Origin: an uncultured Clostridia bacterium
GTDB taxonomy: Bacteria; Bacillota; Clostridia; Oscillospirales; UBA644
DNA: 64,000 bases
Assembly: GCA_948443805.1 (NCBI GenBank)
Contig: CAOJUB010000009.1
Span: forward strand, 1-64,000
Reading direction: 5' to 3'
A program made the translations under genes and the position numbers. The stretch's first letter is position 1; every line of letters begins with the position of its first letter. The notes below the pieces were generated by a model. The model searched no databases. It had not been told where the DNA came from and worked only from the letters and a program-made list of their open reading frames with translations. Below are positions 15,793 to 57,938 of the stretch, piece by piece.

Positions 15793-16512
15793 TTATTCCT
15801 CGTTTTCAAGAAGTGTTCCCACCGAATCGTTGCCGGAAACAGCTTTTACAATATTGCTGCCGTCGCCCAATTCGAATAAAAGGACTTTTAAGGCATTATC
15901 CCGGCACATAGCCGCCGCAGCAGCATCAATGACCTTTAAATCCCGGCGAAGAAGTTCTGCGTAAGAAATTGTTGACAATTTTACCGCCGAAGGGTCTTTT
16001 TTCGGATCTGCAGTATAGACGCCATCGATATTTTTTGCCAGAAGAGCCACATCGACACCCAGTTCAACGGCACGAAGCACCGCGCCGGTATCCGTAGTAA
16101 AATAAGGATTCCCCGTACCGCCGCCTAAAAGAACCACTCTTCCCTTTTTCAAATGAGAAACAGCTTTTTCCCGGCAATACGTTTCGGCAAACTTCTCCAT
16201 CGGCACCGCAGACATTGCACGGGCGTCAACGCCAATCCGAAGGAAGGTATCCTGCAAAGCAAGCACATTCATCATCGTTGCCATCATTCCCATATTGTCT
16301 GCACGGAACTGCTCCATTTCATTGCCGTTCCGTCCGCGCCAAAAATTCCCCGCGCCGACGACCACAGCAACCTGGCATCCCATCTCGCAGCATTTTTTGA
16401 TCTGAGAACACACGCCTTCAAGCACTCCGAAATCCAAACCGTGCCCACATTCTCCGGCTAACGCTTCACCGCTGATTTTAACCAGAATTCGTTCATATTT
16501 CAGCTGATTCAT
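15793..16512 (-). CDS. pyrH: UMP kinase
   Basis: Amino acid kinase-fold enzyme phosphorylating UMP. KISGEALAG at the N-terminus, VVVGAGNFWRG, GGGTGNPYFTTDT and TADPKKDP are the family motifs. The start was set at ATG 16512 with AAAGGAAG upstream, giving 239 aa. The open frame to 16551 is unlikely to be used. It is the first gene of the operon and has an unusually long leader (about 310 nt) rich in palindromes. Confidence 0.97.
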   Translation of the reverse strand: MNQLKYERILVKISGEALAGECGHGLDFGVLEGVCSQIKKCCEMGCQVAVVVGAGNFWRGRNGNEMEQFRADNMGMMATMMNVLALQDTFLRIGVDARAMSAVPMEKFAETYCREKAVSHLKKGRVVLLGGGTGNPYFTTDTGAVLRAVELGVDVALLAKNIDGVYTADPKKDPSAVKLSTISYAELLRRDLKVIDAAAAAMCRDNALKVLLFELGDGSNIVKAVSGNDSVGTLLENEE

Positions 16513-16587
16513 AATTCTTCCTTTCATCTTGTCATACCGCCAGAAAAACAAATTTTATTCGAAATAAGCGAAACGCTTTTTTATAAC

Positions 16588-16851
16588 ATGAATTTCGCGC
16601 CGAAAAAAGCGGGCATCCGGAACGGATTTTTAACCGAACGGTTGAAACGCTTTTTTCCCAAGAACAGCTTGCTGTTCTTTATTATACCATGAAGCAAAAA
16701 TGTTTGCTTCATGCAAATAGTATTTGCATTGGCATTCTTTGCGACGTGATTCAATATCGCAGCCGTGCTCCGCACGGAGTGGCAAAGCCACAAAGTCTTG
16801 CTATGCAAGGCTTTCTGCGTATATTATACCATAGTTCTCTATTTTTGTCAA
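16588..16851 (-). repeat. Modular promoter-hairpin element, copy A (pyrH leader)
   Basis: Read leftwards it starts with TTGACA (16846-16851), 17 nt, TATAAT (16823-16828). Six short palindromes follow (16797-16809, 16779-16791, 16763-16777, 16741-16760, 16711-16729, 16689-16712), then a second ATGGTATAAT (16681-16690 region). Next come a GAACAG/CTGTTC hairpin (16660-16679) and an A6GCG...CGCT6 branched structure (16603-16656). The last two modules recur at 32.3 kb and the hairpin recurs at 57.1 kb. It makes up most of the pyrH 5' UTR. Confidence 0.7.
16823..16851 (-). promoter_or_regulatory. Promoter of the pyrH-ispG operon
   Basis: TTGACA-17-TATAAT, perfect consensus on the minus strand. A second TATAAT at 16682-16687 has no good -35. 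Confidence 0.8.
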
Positions 16852-16884: not shown

Positions 16885-16921
16885 AAAAAAGAAAAGGCGG
16901 CCAATGGCCGCCTTTTCTTTT
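16885..16921 (-). terminator. Bidirectional terminator after the DUF4838 gene
   Basis: Near-perfect inverted repeat AAAAGGCGGCCA/TGGCCGCCTTTT flanked by A- and T-tracts. It directly follows the DUF4838 stop and insulates it from the pyrH promoter. Confidence 0.85.
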
Positions 16922-19821
16922 TATTTCCATCTCGGTTCAATCGTATCGATATTATAATACATCTTCATGGGATTTGCCGTAATTTCGGCCGTTGCCGGAA
17001 TCGAAGGATCGCCGACTGAAGCATTGTATTTCTTCAGGATATTGTAGAACGCTTCATACCTTGCAGTATAAGCAGCCTTCTGTTCCTCTGTACCGTTTTC
17101 ATACTGCGCTTCATACTGTCCGCACAGCGCAAGGAATTCCATATGGCTGCTTGCCAGCTCGATCAAACGCTGCTGATCCGAATTGTTCGCCATTGCAAGC
17201 GCTTTATCAAACAGTTCACGCATCTTTTCATAATTCTCCGCGTAATATTTCACGCTGAGAACCTCCTGCGGCTGCGAGAAGTTACTCAACCAGCATCCAA
17301 GCTGATCGCCGGCTTCAATCCACATATCCATATACTCCAGCAGATAACGCCAGCCGTCGCCGTAAGTCATGCGATAATATTCTTCAATCAGAAGCTGATA
17401 ATTTTCCTCTGACATATACGGATTCCACAGACAGTTTGAAATCAGATAACTGTGCGCTTTTTCCAGACCTTTGAAGTCCGAAGCGCTCTGCGATTCCGCA
17501 TAAATACCGTCGCATCCGTTTTCCGCAAACCAGAAGAAATCGTAATGAATATTGTAAGTTGTGGACAGCGGTGCAAGATACGCATAATAGTTTGTGCTGT
17601 AATACCATGCGTAAATTTCGGAACATTGATCCGACCATTTCTGGAAATATTTCGAATCATCCTTATTTTGGAAACGTTTATCGCCTCCCGTTCCGCCGGA
17701 AGAACAAGCCGAGCCGTCAAAACGATGGTTGTTGCAGCCGTTCCAGCAGTAACAGAGAACCACGTTGTCACGTAGCGCCGTTACCGTTGGCTTTCTCGCT
17801 TCCGTTCCGTAGGCAATCGTAAAGATCGTCATTTCGGGATGCGTATCTTCCAGCCATTCCGCCACTTTATTGACGAAACGAACCAATGTGCCGGAGATAC
17901 TTCCCTCTTCCCGATTTACGTTCGTACAGGAATTTCCGCGTCCCGAACAAGTATGATATTCTTCATTATCGTTCCATGCAACCGTCAGCTGCTGCATACC
18001 GGGTTCGCCGGGAACATAACCCATCTTCAGGCGGCGCTGGATTTCTTCCTCCGCCTTGCGGATAAATTCTTCGTAGTTCGCCTCTTTTGTCAGACAGGGC
18101 TGGGTATTCTCATAAATATCCTTGCCAAGCGTTCCGCGGGAAGAATCGTTCTGCTCAAAATATTCCGTAATCAAACTGTAGAAAGAATGAGCGTGCCAGA
18201 ACATGGTTCCAACCGCATCGCCGTAATTCGAATTGTTCACCTTCTGCAGCTCGGTTGCATTCAGTTTTCTCGGCGCATAATAATAGTCTTCAATCTCACC
18301 CATAGACCGGGGACCGCCGACATAACGATAATCAAACGCCGGAACTTCTTTATGTTTCAGACCGGCCGGAATGTCCGTCTTATCCGCCACATACATATAC
18401 TGATCGGTATCAAGGAAACGCATTCCGACAAATTCTTCGCCGAATTCAAACGCACCGTACAGGTTTCCTGCGTCGGCGCCGCCGGTAATAAGAACTCCAC
18501 CGTCGTCCGAAACCTCAATCAGATACCCGGCGCGTTTCAGTTCGCCATAGCTTTCAACGACATGATACCCTTTTTCCGTCAGCTGGTTCTTGCCGTCCTC
18601 GGTTTTTGCAATTTTTGCCGTCGGATCGACAACAAACCGAATCTGTTTCTTTCCTTCGGTCGCTTCAGACGCCGTTTTCACATCCAGATAGAGACCTGTT
18701 GAGAGAACAATGCAACGACGAAGCATTTTCGCTGCGTTCTCTATACTCGGCGAATAATCGTCCGGGATAACCAATTCATATTGATCGATCGGGTTGCCGG
18801 CAATGGTCAGAGCCTTGACCGCCGCGCCTTGACCAATCACAATATCGGTCGTTTTGGCAATGCTGATCGTTCCGGAAATCGCCGCATAATTTTTAATCAG
18901 ATAACGAACCGCGCTGTCCAGACCTTTTTCAGATTTTGCCGCAACAAAAATCTTTTCACCGGAAACCTTTACCCGATAACCGGAATCCTGCAGTCCGTCC
19001 ATGGTGAGGCCTTCATCAGCAATCGCGCCGACGGAAAGAACAATTTCTTTCGCCGCAACTTCGCTGCTGAGATTCATCGCCGTGCCCCTGTCGGACAATT
19101 CCTGCTTCAGATAATCCGCGTAGCTATTGGCATTGCTTGTCATGGCACGAATTGTATAATCTGCACCGGCCGTCAGCTTTTCACCGGAATCCACAACGGT
19201 AATATCCATCGATTTGCTGACGTTCGATGTTTCTCCGGTTTCTTCGTCATACATCCAAGCGGTAACAACCACTGTGGAGACGCCAACCGCCTTTGCGGTC
19301 AACAAGCCTTTTGCCTCGCCGTCCGCAGCCGCGTCTACAATATCTCCGTTCGAAGAACGATAGGTATACACCACGTTCGTCGGTTCTTTTTCAGCAGCAA
19401 AATCAAAGGTCAGCGGCTGTGTCGAACCCTTTTCCATCTCGGCAGAAACCTTCAGCGTAATCGACGCTTTGTCCGTCGGCAGTTCCGGATGATCGACATG
19501 CTGTTTACCGATCGGCTGTCCGATCAACGAATTTTCCAGCGTCCATTTGGCAAGATGTCTCGCCAGAAGAACGGCGTCCTTGACGTCGACTTCAGAACTC
19601 CCGTCAACATCCGCTGCGCGGGGATCAATCTGTTCCGCCACCGCCCATTTCGCGTTATACCGGTTCAAAAGAACGCTGTCAGCCGTCGTAATATTTCCGT
19701 CGCCGTTCAGGTCGCCGTAAAGTTTGCTTTCCACTGTGGCCTGCATGGCAAAGCCTGTCAGCGCCGAAGCGATAATTCCCAGCGACAGCAGCGCCGACAG
19801 AAGTCTCTTTTTCCCTTTCAT
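16921..19821 (-). CDS. Secreted dockerin-like / DUF4838 protein, 966 aa
   Basis: ATG 19821 follows GGAGGGAAAAG. A signal peptide (KGKKRLLSALLSLGIIASA) comes first. Residues of about 32-95 hold two F-hand calcium loops (DLNGDGNITTADSVLL and DVDGSSEVDVKDAVLLARH), which is a type I dockerin-like module. A bacterial Ig-like domain follows, with SSNGDIVDAAADGEAKGLLTA. Next is a glycosidase accessory-like domain, then a large DUF4838 region with CYCWNGCNNH and NDNEEYHTCSGRG. DUF4838 proteins are associated with extracellular polysaccharide breakdown, but the activity is unproven. The dockerin is N-terminal, whereas it is more often C-terminal. The gene is monocistronic with its own promoter and terminator. 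Confidence 0.85.
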   Translation of the reverse strand: MKGKKRLLSALLSLGIIASALTGFAMQATVESKLYGDLNGDGNITTADSVLLNRYNAKWAVAEQIDPRAADVDGSSEVDVKDAVLLARHLAKWTLENSLIGQPIGKQHVDHPELPTDKASITLKVSAEMEKGSTQPLTFDFAAEKEPTNVVYTYRSSNGDIVDAAADGEAKGLLTAKAVGVSTVVVTAWMYDEETGETSNVSKSMDITVVDSGEKLTAGADYTIRAMTSNANSYADYLKQELSDRGTAMNLSSEVAAKEIVLSVGAIADEGLTMDGLQDSGYRVKVSGEKIFVAAKSEKGLDSAVRYLIKNYAAISGTISIAKTTDIVIGQGAAVKALTIAGNPIDQYELVIPDDYSPSIENAAKMLRRCIVLSTGLYLDVKTASEATEGKKQIRFVVDPTAKIAKTEDGKNQLTEKGYHVVESYGELKRAGYLIEVSDDGGVLITGGADAGNLYGAFEFGEEFVGMRFLDTDQYMYVADKTDIPAGLKHKEVPAFDYRYVGGPRSMGEIEDYYYAPRKLNATELQKVNNSNYGDAVGTMFWHAHSFYSLITEYFEQNDSSRGTLGKDIYENTQPCLTKEANYEEFIRKAEEEIQRRLKMGYVPGEPGMQQLTVAWNDNEEYHTCSGRGNSCTNVNREEGSISGTLVRFVNKVAEWLEDTHPEMTIFTIAYGTEARKPTVTALRDNVVLCYCWNGCNNHRFDGSACSSGGTGGDKRFQNKDDSKYFQKWSDQCSEIYAWYYSTNYYAYLAPLSTTYNIHYDFFWFAENGCDGIYAESQSASDFKGLEKAHSYLISNCLWNPYMSEENYQLLIEEYYRMTYGDGWRYLLEYMDMWIEAGDQLGCWLSNFSQPQEVLSVKYYAENYEKMRELFDKALAMANNSDQQRLIELASSHMEFLALCGQYEAQYENGTEEQKAAYTARYEAFYNILKKYNASVGDPSIPATAEITANPMKMYYNIDTIEPRWK

Positions 19822-19885
19822 CTTTTCCCTCCGTCCTATTTTTTCTTCCAAATTTAATTCCGAACCCGAATCCGGTTCTAATGCC

Positions 19886-19914
19886 ATTATATCATAACTT
19901 ATCTACCCTGTCAA
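19886..19914 (-). promoter_or_regulatory. Promoter of the dockerin/DUF4838 gene
   Basis: TTGACA (19909-19914), 17-nt spacer and TATAAT (19886-19891) on the minus strand. I saw no obvious operator. Confidence 0.8.
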
Positions 19915-31703: not shown

Positions 31704-32276
31704 ATGCTGATCGACCTGGTTAAAAAAAGCAGAAGCTGCCGAAAATTCGATGAAAGCGTTCATTATACCAAGGAGACTCTGGCTCAGCTGATCGAAACTG
31801 TCCGGTTCGCCCCGTCCTCGATCAATCTGCAACCGCTCAAATACCGGCTGGTTTTCAAGAAAGAAGAAACCGACTGCGTCTTTCCGCTGACAAAATGGGC
31901 CGGGCTGATTAAAAATGAGAAATTGCCGCCGGACGGCCACCGGCCGACCGCTTATATCCTGATCTGTCATGATACGACAATCCATCCCTCCCCCGAAATT
32001 TTTCTGAAGGATGTTGGCATCTGCGCACAAACCATTATGCTTGCGGCGGCAGAAAAAGAAATCGGCGGCTGTATGATCGGAAGTTTTGAAAAAGAAGCAA
32101 TCAAAAAAGAACTCCGTCTGCCGGAGAATCTGATACCCATGCTGCTCTTGGCGCTCGGAAAATCAGAAGATTCGGTCCTGCTGACCGATGCTGCCGACGG
32201 AAACGTTGCCTATTCCAGGGAAAACGGAAAACAAACCGTTCCCAAAAGAACCGCCGAGGAACTGATACTATACTAA
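31704..32276 (+). CDS. Nitroreductase family protein
   Basis: 190-aa FMN-binding fold. The N-terminal KKSRSCRKFDES with the FMN-binding Arg-Ser-x-Arg and RFAPSSINLQPLKY are typical, as is DVGICAQTIMLAAAEKEIGGCMIGSF. These are NAD(P)H-dependent flavin reductases with varied substrates; the physiological one is not evident. It is monocistronic from its own promoter. Element copy B lies immediately downstream. Confidence 0.88.
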   Translation: MLIDLVKKSRSCRKFDESVHYTKETLAQLIETVRFAPSSINLQPLKYRLVFKKEETDCVFPLTKWAGLIKNEKLPPDGHRPTAYILICHDTTIHPSPEIFLKDVGICAQTIMLAAAEKEIGGCMIGSFEKEAIKKELRLPENLIPMLLLALGKSEDSVLLTDAADGNVAYSRENGKQTVPKRTAEELILY

Positions 32277-32324: not shown

Positions 32325-32460
32325 TTGCACCGGAAAAAAGCGGTTATCCGAAACGGAACTTCAACCGAACGGTTGAAACGCTTTTTTCATAAGAACAGCT
32401 TGCTGTTCTTATGAACAACTTGCTGTTCTTTATTATACCATAACCGGAGGTTATCGTCAA
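32325..32460 (-). repeat. Modular promoter-hairpin element, copy B
   Basis: Read leftwards: TTGACG (32455-32460), 17 nt, TATAAT (32432-32437). Two tandem GAACA/TGTTC palindromes follow (32391-32410 perfect, 32411-32430 imperfect), then the A6GCG...CGCT6 branched structure (32334-32387) containing CCGAACGG. The core (about 25 bp, CCGAACGGTTGAAACGCTTT) is identical to copy A. The promoter faces the 3' end of the nitroreductase gene. Confidence 0.65.
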
Positions 32461-32462
32461 GA

Positions 32463-32732
32463 ATGAAAAAAGAAACCGTTTATCTTCTCCAGAGAACTGC
32501 GGTCACGGGGTTGTCCGCCATCATTGCCGTCTTACTCTGGATGTTTATTCCTACTGCTGAGGGAAACCGGATTTTCAATTTCATACTGGCCGGTATTGCA
32601 ACCCTGCTGCTGATTGGCTATGCTGTTTTTTTCTGGCTCAGAAAAGAAACGGAAAAAACCAGAACAACCCGCGCGCTGATTCTTCTCACCGCCGCGCTGG
32701 CTATTCTGGTCTATTATAATTTTATTGTTTAG
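32463..32732 (+). CDS. Small membrane protein, 89 aa
   Basis: Three hydrophobic segments (about residues 13-29, 36-55 and 69-87) separated by a basic loop. No family is recognised. GGAGG lies about 13 nt before the ATG. It ends 4 nt inside the convergent spoIID stop. It begins right after the promoter of element copy B on the other strand. Confidence 0.55.
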   Translation: MKKETVYLLQRTAVTGLSAIIAVLLWMFIPTAEGNRIFNFILAGIATLLLIGYAVFFWLRKETEKTRTTRALILLTAALAILVYYNFIV

Positions 32733-56082: not shown

Positions 56083-56940
56083 TTATTTTCTGATAAAGAG
56101 TACGCCAAGCGTATTTTTACCGCAATGCGATGTAACGGTCGAACCGGCCGTCGTAACCAGTATTTCATCAAAAATCCCTTTTGATGCAACATAATCCCGG
56201 ATCATCAGAGGAATCCGATCTTTCGTACAGGTAGAAGTAATAAAAACCCGTTTTGTTTCATATGCTTCCGCAGGCTGAGACAACCGGTCGTCAACATATT
56301 TTTTCAGAACATCTTCCAAATTTCCCCGGTACTTTTTCGCAACGCCCATCGCACCGTCTTTTACTTCAATGCATGCCTTCAAATTCAGCAAATTGGCGCC
56401 GAGAACCGCAACGGAAGAACAACGGCCGCCCTTTTTCATATATTCCAGGTTTCCCAAAATAAAGCTGGCGTCAACGCGGGGAATTACCTCTTTTATTTTT
56501 TCCGGAATGTCTTCCGGCGCAACGCCGTTTTCAAGAAAATCAATAACCGAAAGAACAATATGCCCGCTGCCGGTCGATAAATTTTCCGAATCGATCACAA
56601 AAACCTTTCCGGCGCCGACCTCTTCCGCAGCAAGGCGCGCATTTTGACCGGTACTAGAAAACTGGGAACCGATATTGATATGGATCACCTGCCTGCCCGA
56701 CGAAACCAAAGAAGAAAAAACTTCGGCATATTCGGAGATGCTGACCGCCGAAGTTTTGGGGAGAATTCCGGTTTTTGAAACATAATCAAAAATCTGAGGC
56801 GCGGAAAGATCAACGCCGTCTGTATAGGTATCCTCCCCCATCGTCACATGCAAAGGGATGATCCGAATCCCATACCGAGCAATCAAATCAGGCGAAAGGT
56901 CGCAGGTGCTGTCTGCGGTAATCGCAACATTTTCAATCAT
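56083..56940 (-). CDS. DegV family fatty-acid-binding protein
   Basis: 285 aa. ITADSTCDLSPDLIARYGI at the N-terminus, the DGVDLSAPQIFDYVSKTGILPKTSA segment and FVIDSENLSTGSGHIV define the DegV fold. Such proteins bind a fatty acid and are FakB-like, feeding exogenous fatty acid to FakA kinase. No FakA is adjacent. AAAGGA precedes ATG 56940. It is driven from the promoter of element copy C with a leader of about 200 nt. Confidence 0.9.
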   Translation of the reverse strand: MIENVAITADSTCDLSPDLIARYGIRIIPLHVTMGEDTYTDGVDLSAPQIFDYVSKTGILPKTSAVSISEYAEVFSSLVSSGRQVIHINIGSQFSSTGQNARLAAEEVGAGKVFVIDSENLSTGSGHIVLSVIDFLENGVAPEDIPEKIKEVIPRVDASFILGNLEYMKKGGRCSSVAVLGANLLNLKACIEVKDGAMGVAKKYRGNLEDVLKKYVDDRLSQPAEAYETKRVFITSTCTKDRIPLMIRDYVASKGIFDEILVTTAGSTVTSHCGKNTLGVLFIRK

Positions 56941-57028
56941 TTTATGTAAATCCTTTCTGAAAAAAAGAACAAAGTAATGTGTGCTATCAAACCATCCAAT
57001 TTGCCGAAAAACAGTTTTTTTCTTGTGC

Positions 57029-57172
57029 TATGAATTTCGCACCGGAAAAACACCAGCGGCGAACGCGCTGTTCGGCTGGATAGCCGAAAGAGGTTGTTCT
57101 AAAGAACAGTAAACTGTTCTTGGGAACAAACTTGCTGTTCTTTATTATACCATAAACCGGAAAAAAAGTCAA
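57029..57172 (-). repeat. Modular promoter-hairpin element, copy C (degV leader)
   Basis: Read leftwards: TTGACT (57167-57172), 17 nt, TATAAT (57144-57149), a GAACA/TGTTC half-palindrome, then the perfect palindrome at 57102-57121 (AAGAACAGT/ACTGTTCTT). A CCAGC...GCTGG stem and CCGGTGCGAAATTCATA, shared with copy A, follow. The palindrome differs from copies A and B by a compensated C-G to T-A pair. The branched A6GCG...CGCT6 module is not present. Confidence 0.65.
57144..57172 (-). promoter_or_regulatory. Promoter of degV
   Basis: TTGACT-17-TATAAT on the minus strand, within element copy C. Confidence 0.75.
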
Positions 57173-57245: not shown

Positions 57246-57938
57246 TCAAAGGTATTTCGCACTGTTGATCTTAATACCCGGCCCCATGGTGGAAGCAATT
57301 ACACAGCTCTTGATATACTGACCTTTTGCCGCAGCCGGTTTTGCTTTTACAATAGCGCCGATGATTGCGTCAAAGTTTTCGGAAAGCTTTTCTTTTCCGA
57401 AAGAAACTTTACCAATCGGACAATGAATAATATTGGTTTTGTCCAAACGATACTCAATCTTACCGGCTTTTACTTCCTGAACAGCCTGCGCAACATTAGG
57501 CGTAACCGTTCCGGCTTTCGGGTTCGGCATCAGGCCTTTCGGGCCAAGCACTTTACCGATACGGCCGACAAGACCCATCATATCGGGAGAAGCGATCATA
57601 ACGTCGAAATCAAACCAGTTTTCGCTCTGGATTTTGGTGATATATTCTTCTGCGCCGACATATTCTGCACCGGCATCTTCCGCAGCTTTCACATTGTCGC
57701 CCTTGGTAATAACAAGAACCTTCACCGATTTACCGGTTCCGTGCGGAAGAACAATCGAACCTCTGACCTGCTGATCGGCATGACGGGAATCAACGCCGAG
57801 CTTTACATGCAGCTCAACGGTTTCATCAAATTTTGCCTTTGCTGTCTGGCAAACCAAATCGGCAGCTTCAGCGGAATCATAAAGTTTTGTTCTATCAACA
57901 AGCTTTTCGCTTTCCAAATATTTCTTACCTTTTTTCAT
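57246..57938 (-). CDS. rplA: 50S ribosomal protein L1
   Basis: 230 aa. [20 protein letters not shown] at the start, the signature [20 protein letters not shown] and [18 protein letters not shown] are complete. It forms the L1 stalk and may repress the L11 operon mRNA. It is the last gene here; rplJ and rplL, the usual followers, are not present. Confidence 0.98.

Follow-up and report, generated by a model that had tools for sequence, protein, structure and literature searches.

Small folded repeats, probably mobile, located directly after the -10 element of host promoters in an uncultured Clostridia bacterium

The window analysed here, a 64,000-nucleotide stretch of DNA from an uncultured Clostridia bacterium, carries three copies of a structured intergenic element that belong to a larger repeat family, and we consider it probable that these are small promoter-targeting mobile repeats (MITE/BIME/BOX-like) that are non-coding, folded and transparent to transcription. 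Each unit would insert exactly 3' of the TATAAT of a host sigma-A promoter, in the direction of transcription and preferably at extended -10 promoters, and the host transcript would start inside the element and then read through to the gene. Since a -10 is present at both ends after insertion, the host promoter would stay intact; each copy would also leave a fresh TATAAT at its 3' end, so that further copies could enter and build up tandem or mosaic arrays. Arrays of the types -10/P-C/-10/P-C... and -10/T3/-10/P-C are found, where P, C and T3 are the modules described below.

The initial annotation of the window had described a promoter-plus-palindrome cassette in three copies (A, B and C). 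Its promoter boxes were confirmed by direct reading of the minus strand (Table 1), and the 17-nt spacer ends in ATGG in all three copies. The palindrome indeed belongs to the repeat; the promoter does not, as its -35 is that of the host and the repeat starts immediately 3' of the host -10. In copies B and C the GAACAG/CTGTTC palindrome follows the promoter as claimed, while in copy A a 142-bp T3 module separates it from the consensus promoter, and it is preceded by a second -10 without a -35. The replacement of C-G by T-A in the palindrome of copy C is real (AAGAACAGTTTACTGTTCTT). The branched A6GCG...CGCT6 stem with CCGTTCGG was recovered in copies A and B; copy C carries in its place a diverged subtype that the first reading had overlooked (GAACAACCTC..GGTGTTTTTCC), which has the same three-way fold and differs from the first subtype (T2 versus T1) by compensatory changes in 17 of 22 pairs. 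With at most one mismatch, TATGGTATAATA has 7 matches in the window, versus 0.09 expected.

Copy B lies antisense to both of its neighbours, a nitroreductase gene (31704-32276, +) and an 89-aa ORF (32463-32732, +), and its -35 adjoins the start codon of this opposite-strand ORF (32432-32463). Directly upstream of copy A, positions 16921-19887 encode a 988-aa protein with DUF4838, dockerin type I and GH20 domain 2, a possible candidate for a cellulosome-like component.

Table 1. Coordinates of the three copies and their neighbouring genes in the window, and of the 90-bp module of genome G041 (contig positions)
Feature	Position	Strand	Evidence
Copy A, host promoter TTGACA-17-TATAAT, extended -10 (TGG)	16823-16851	-	12/12 consensus
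Copy A, T3: cloverleaf-like hairpin string and terminal hairpin, end TTCATGGTATAAT	16681-16822	-	R2 matches in 25 genera
Copy A, palindrome P AAGAACAGCAAGCTGTTCTT, directly 3' of second -10	16660-16679	-	read from sequence
Copy A, branched module C, subtype T1, three-way junction	16602-16658	-	R1 16579-16669, 98.2 bits; covariation
Copy A, module tail GGCGCGAAATTCATG, decayed -10 TTATAA	16579-16601	-	sequence/alignment
pyrH (UMP kinase), downstream of copy A	15793-16512	-	PF00696; PyrH matches in relatives
Copy B, -35/-10 TTGACG-17-TATAAT	32432-32460	-	read from sequence
Copy B, two tandem P palindromes	32391-32430	-	read from sequence
Copy B, branched module C, subtype T1	32333-32388	-	R1 84.8 bits
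rplA, before copy C promoter	57246-57938		Ribosomal_L1 domain
Copy C, host promoter TTGACT-17-TATAAT, after rplA	57144-57172	-	11/12 consensus
Copy C, two tandem P palindromes, second with T-A for C-G	57102-57142	-	sequence
Copy C, branched module C, subtype T2	57044-57099	-	R1 81.9 bits; aligned with T1
Copy C, module tail GGTGCGAAATTCATAG, decayed -10	57021-57043	-	sequence/alignment
degV-family gene, downstream of copy C	56083-56940	-	PF02645
G041 90-bp module, loci L284-L286	C4:91400-92500, C3:107500-108200, C10:48500-49200		

That the cassette is not random intergenic sequence, as had been proposed, also holds for the genome as a whole, where it is multi-copy, modular and structured. Within the 1.81-Mb assembly (98.85% complete, 35 contigs), TATGGTATAATAAAGAACAG has 39 matches with up to three mismatches, versus none for the reversed sequence used as control, and chance was ruled out as the source of such copy counts. 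The search for further copies that had been suggested as a covariance-model check yielded about 46 branched C modules, with strong covariation, about 13 T3 copies and at least 40 arrays; the within-genus sample is one genome, and relatedness inflates some counts. Four clusters (C4:1133, C4:99723, C9:1269 and C9:28788) were dropped as chance. Several contigs end at or near modules (G050:C31, G344:C59, G344:C31, G165:C28, G000:C17 and C25), so that the modules probably interrupt assembly and the counts given here are too low.

The arrays follow a regular order. At the front stands the host promoter, with a unique -35, a spacer of 17 bp and usually TGNTATAAT, and it is followed by P palindromes plus C and/or a T3 string, each closed by a further -10 (TTCATGGTATAAT). 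After the promoter come one to five palindromes P (AAGAACAGYAARCTGTTCTT) and then the branched module C, either of subtype T1, laid out as GGAAAAAAGCG [TTCAACC..GGTTGAA] [ATCCG..CGGAT] CGCTTTTTTCC, or of subtype T2, GGAAAAACATC [TTCGGCT..AGCCGAA] [GCGC..GCGC] GGTGTTTTTCC. Module C leads into GGTGCGAAATTCATGGTATAATA, after which further P, C or T3 can come. T3 is a string of hairpins that likewise ends in TTCATGGTATAATA, and it occurs without P-C on contigs C26, C12, C4 and C1; the right end TTCATGGTATAAT is common to T3 and P-C. Identical tandem units exist (104-bp repeats at C7:50300-50508), and the T3 of copy A matches G000:C7:50171-50311, which has unrelated flanks, over 141 bp at 100% identity. 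Near-identical copies at unrelated sites (C9 and C7), together with a patchy distribution (33 of 394 genomes), are the marks of a mobile repeat, and from these features of the sequences we infer mobility. The multi-copy, structured and apparently mobile part of the original description, a mobile or selected regulatory leader cassette, therefore stands; nothing shows regulation.

At their 5' junction the arrays meet the -10 of an ordinary sigma-A promoter. Indeed, TTGACA is matched at 5-6 of 6 positions in 31 of 45 cases, nearly always at 17 bp, and the probability of five matches or better in shuffled controls is 0.016. A -35 of at least 4/6 was found for none of the 13 internal -10s, and plain tandem promoters were rejected as an explanation for this reason. 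The genome holds 131 promoters of the type TTGAC-N17-19-TATAAT, versus 4 matches to a control pattern. The element occupies 14 of the 63 consensus promoters sampled in this genome; the sample was drawn partly around elements, so that the true fraction is lower. Within the same partly element-centred sample, TGN precedes the -10 in 12 of 14 occupied versus 21 of 49 unoccupied promoters, and TGG in 10 of 14 versus 3 of 49; the enrichment of TGG might reflect co-transfer instead of targeting. When the external T3 sites of all genera are considered, a -35 of at least 4/6 is present in 41 of 69 (13% when shuffled) and one of at least 5/6 in 23 of 69 (1.8% when shuffled), and the extended -10 TG stands before the host -10 at 42 of 44 T3 sites, versus the 21 of 49 noted above for unoccupied promoters of this genome. 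At the right end the bases before the -10 are element-like, with TGG in 27 of 44 T3 sites. At 15 of these 44 the two ends disagree in the base preceding the hexamer, which led us to discard TGGTATAAT as a strict part of the left end.

Other configurations were also seen. Three P-C units have no 5' -10 and lie 2-10 bp beyond a stop codon (C1:197686, L053; C12:26031, L067; C3:63747, L068), perhaps through another insertion route or use as terminators. At G000:C2:128942 and 129038 (L025 and L007), AAAGAACAG follows the -10 of both members of a divergent promoter pair, spaced by about 80 bp, and one of the two has just half a palindrome.

The 3' -10 may be either borne by the element or a target-site duplication. 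Three P-C units have the same variant hexamer at both ends (TAGAAT in L029, TACAAT in L006 and TAAAAT in L010), versus about 0.3 expected by chance according to our own estimate, and this fits a duplication, as would be left by a conventional MITE that is moved by a DDE transposase and whose 6-7 bp target-site duplication happens to be TATAAT(A). We nevertheless hold such an origin to be very unlikely. No terminal inverted repeats were seen when the ends were compared by eye (start AAGAACAG or TACGCAG, end TTCATGG/TATAAT), and the elements are thus not MITEs in the strict sense, which calls for such repeats. Other variant hexamers are unequal between the ends (TACAAT/TATAAT in G165, TATTAT/TATAAT in G384), the mismatch before the -10 at 15 of 44 T3 sites limits any duplication to the hexamer, and a DDE enzyme confined to TATAAT at promoters would be unusual.

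Subtypes T1 and T2 align as one three-way junction. Over 46 distinct rows of module C, 92% of the cells are paired, with two-sided changes in 17 of 22 pairs, and the covariation score is 0.425, versus 0.183 for shuffled and at most 0.083 for slid alignments. As this alignment was fitted to a model of its own fold, the slid control and a MAFFT-based alignment, in which 9 of 19 pairs have two-sided changes, are the safer evidence. Palindrome P covaries as well (A-T replaces G-C at pair 8, and T-A replaces C-G at pair 9), and the folded unit has a z of -4.7. The rate of change in stems is about half that of loops, and pairing is preserved in about half of the pairs that have changed; this constraint after insertion could stem from host function or from homogenisation. 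The part of P-C that decays fastest is the 3' -10, with 0.30-0.34 substitutions/site versus about 0.08 in stems. Since the outer promoter is kept while this -10 decays, genes are probably read through the element by the host RNA polymerase.

The foot of the T3 fold reaches the first base after the host TATAAT. In 37 of 43 elements this base is complementary to the one that precedes ATTGA, and A:T, G:C, C:G and T:A pairs all occur (0 of 20000 permutations; p=0.00025 when each combination is counted once per genome). At standard spacing this foot base lies about six bases upstream of the expected transcript start, and RNA from that promoter cannot contain it; the pairing therefore points to a fold at the DNA level, although RNA from a promoter further upstream could possibly include this base. 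For promoter-targeting repeats, the folds would probably form in single-stranded DNA and be recognised by a putative mobilising enzyme provided in trans, and a single-stranded DNA intermediate would be expected. The circular junction of an excised single unit would be TTCATGGTATAAT joined to ATACGCAG or AAAGAACAG.

The same folds could in principle act in RNA. If the repeats were cis-regulatory leaders (attenuators or 5'-stabilisers) under selection in a regulon, P and the branched stem would work in the mRNA 5' end, for example with the P hairpins and the A6GCG...CGCT6 stem as a conditional terminator. Such a role agrees with the sense orientation of the arrays, 36 of 40 of which have a same-strand gene behind them (gene calls made for this analysis), with the position of the strongly covarying module C inside the transcript, with the constraint on stems, and with the z value and the T-tract after the stem. 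The genes behind the arrays are, however, unrelated (pyrH, degV, ispD, FAD-binding oxidase, MgtE, thioredoxin, LysR, Nudix, GNAT, amidohydrolase, a PAS protein and tRNA-Ala/Trp/Pro), and no common function or ligand pathway was found among them; there is no sense gene behind copy B or C10:51225; the number of units per site varies (1-5 P, 0-3 C); the T3 fold takes in bases upstream of the transcription start; and P-C was absent, under strict filters, from the 393 other genomes of the order. We thus regard an RNA leader as unlikely, and the regulatory role assumed in the initial annotation was not borne out. An empty site was sought at pyrH, where relatives without the element have their promoter about 40 nt upstream of the gene and show just a short native leader; at a PyrH identity of at most 61%, base-level alignment of this site is impossible.

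A further view of the modules as RNA would have them as multi-copy small RNA genes, each with a promoter, a structured RNA of ~85-130 nt, its own terminator and a new promoter for the gene behind. The compact promoter-hairpin-T-tract layout and the lack of a gene behind copy B fit this view, which we consider extremely improbable: the 3' -10 decays and would be no dependable promoter for the gene behind a terminating module, the units of an array have no -35 boxes, and the T3 fold begins upstream of the transcription start.

A blastn search with T3 gave matches in other families of the order. With a covariance model built from 15 copies, and with strict filters by which weak copies may be lost, T3 was detected in 33 of 394 genomes of the order, representing 25 of 168 genera, with up to 8 copies per genome. 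Its position in other genera is the same as here, after the host -10, and neighbouring T3 copies overlap by exactly 6 nt, the common TATAAT. In G050, T3 stands before genes that read by eye as parA-like and rluA-like. A T3 in the same genome (C43:20763-20895; L281, L275) lies a little over 150 bp upstream of cas9 (Cas9_REC, bridge helix). Orthologous T3 copies in two species (L306/L307; G325, G289) are 98.6% identical, with flanks at 85% upstream and 67% downstream; the sequence identity of the element could reflect constraint or homogenisation. P-C was found solely in this genome: an exact-pattern scan of 84,980 species and IMG/VR gave none elsewhere, and the 393 other genomes of the order had no R1 match under strict filters that could miss diverged forms. 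The expectation of further copies in the genome and in relatives was therefore met by many more copies in the genome and by T3 in 25 genera, and failed for P-C in relatives.

Genome G041, from another family of the order, carries a third, unrelated module of 90 bp (ACCGCACGGCGTTACC...GCCTCTTCATGGAATAATA) that is likewise bounded by a -10 on each side; five such units follow a host -10 in tandem. We tentatively raise the possibility that T3, P-C and the G041 units, with a -10 at both ends and served by the same type of enzyme, represent a class of mobile DNA that gains entry at the open complex of promoters, where RNA polymerase melts the DNA around the insertion point. Modules that are unrelated in sequence but fold as single strands would then use the same site across the order, and the -10 left at each end would spare the host gene. 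The question raised is whether DNA opened by transcription is a target for single-strand transposition. Small interspersed repeats of bacteria are usually described by sequence, whereas this family is defined by an exact address inside promoters, and a repeat family so addressed would be a new strategy for harmless spread. Its modules would reshape 5' UTRs and confound the annotation of promoters and transcription starts in a bacterial group with many uncultured species.

As stated in the initial annotation, the element matches no named family. Rfam gave only tRNAs in the window, the best weak match being rliE (20 bits versus a threshold of 90), and a search for a phage or plasmid origin gave no matches. 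We found no description of the T3 motif or of -10-directed insertion in the literature searched, the coverage of which was partial, so that an earlier description is possible. A LexA/SOS box was rejected, as GAAC and GTTC are spaced by 4 in that box and by 8 here. The repeats are shorter than 200 bp, non-coding, dispersed in many copies and strongly structured, as are small interspersed repeats in general. Assignment to REPIN/RAYT or IS200/IS605 calls for a Y1 transposase in the genome, and PF01797 had 0 matches in this one.

Non-autonomous elements derived from IS200/IS605 insert 3' of a fixed short target and have subterminal hairpins at both ends and no inverted repeats. The present repeats resemble them in hairpins, lack of inverted repeats and apparent insertion 3' of a fixed target; they differ in that no TnpA was found, the target would be TATAAT and the same sequence is present at both ends. 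REPINs and BIMEs, linked to the Y1 enzyme RAYT (PMC3116915, PMC2817692), are similar in their hairpin units, ordered tandem clusters, presumed movement as single-stranded DNA with an enzyme in trans, and a 'clover' fold discussed as substrate. Here, by contrast, no Y1 gene was found in the genome, the units are not organised as inverted REP doublets, the promoter position is fixed and a -10 stands at both ends. The Correia repeat-enclosed elements of Neisseria are MITEs with sigma70-like promoters, one copy of which lies immediately downstream of the mtrCDE promoter (reviewed in PMC10969869); unlike the present repeats, they have inverted repeats, show no systematic placement directly 3' of TATAAT and do not form tandem -10-linked arrays. 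The pneumococcal BOX, RUP and SPRITE repeats (PMC3049150) are likewise short and modular, with variable tandem internal units that fold if transcribed, and are clustered, nested and dispersed in intergenic DNA as presumed parasites. Their sequences are unrelated to those described here, BOX and RUP are bounded by terminal inverted repeats and duplicate their target, and a fixed place at the promoter -10 is not known to be reported for these repeats. The element would work most like the BOX/BIME/REPIN repeats (PMC3049150, PMC3116915, PMC10969869); what appears new, judging from the literature searched, is a module, T3, that recurs in 25 genera at a fixed promoter position and seems akin to these known repeats in its way of working.
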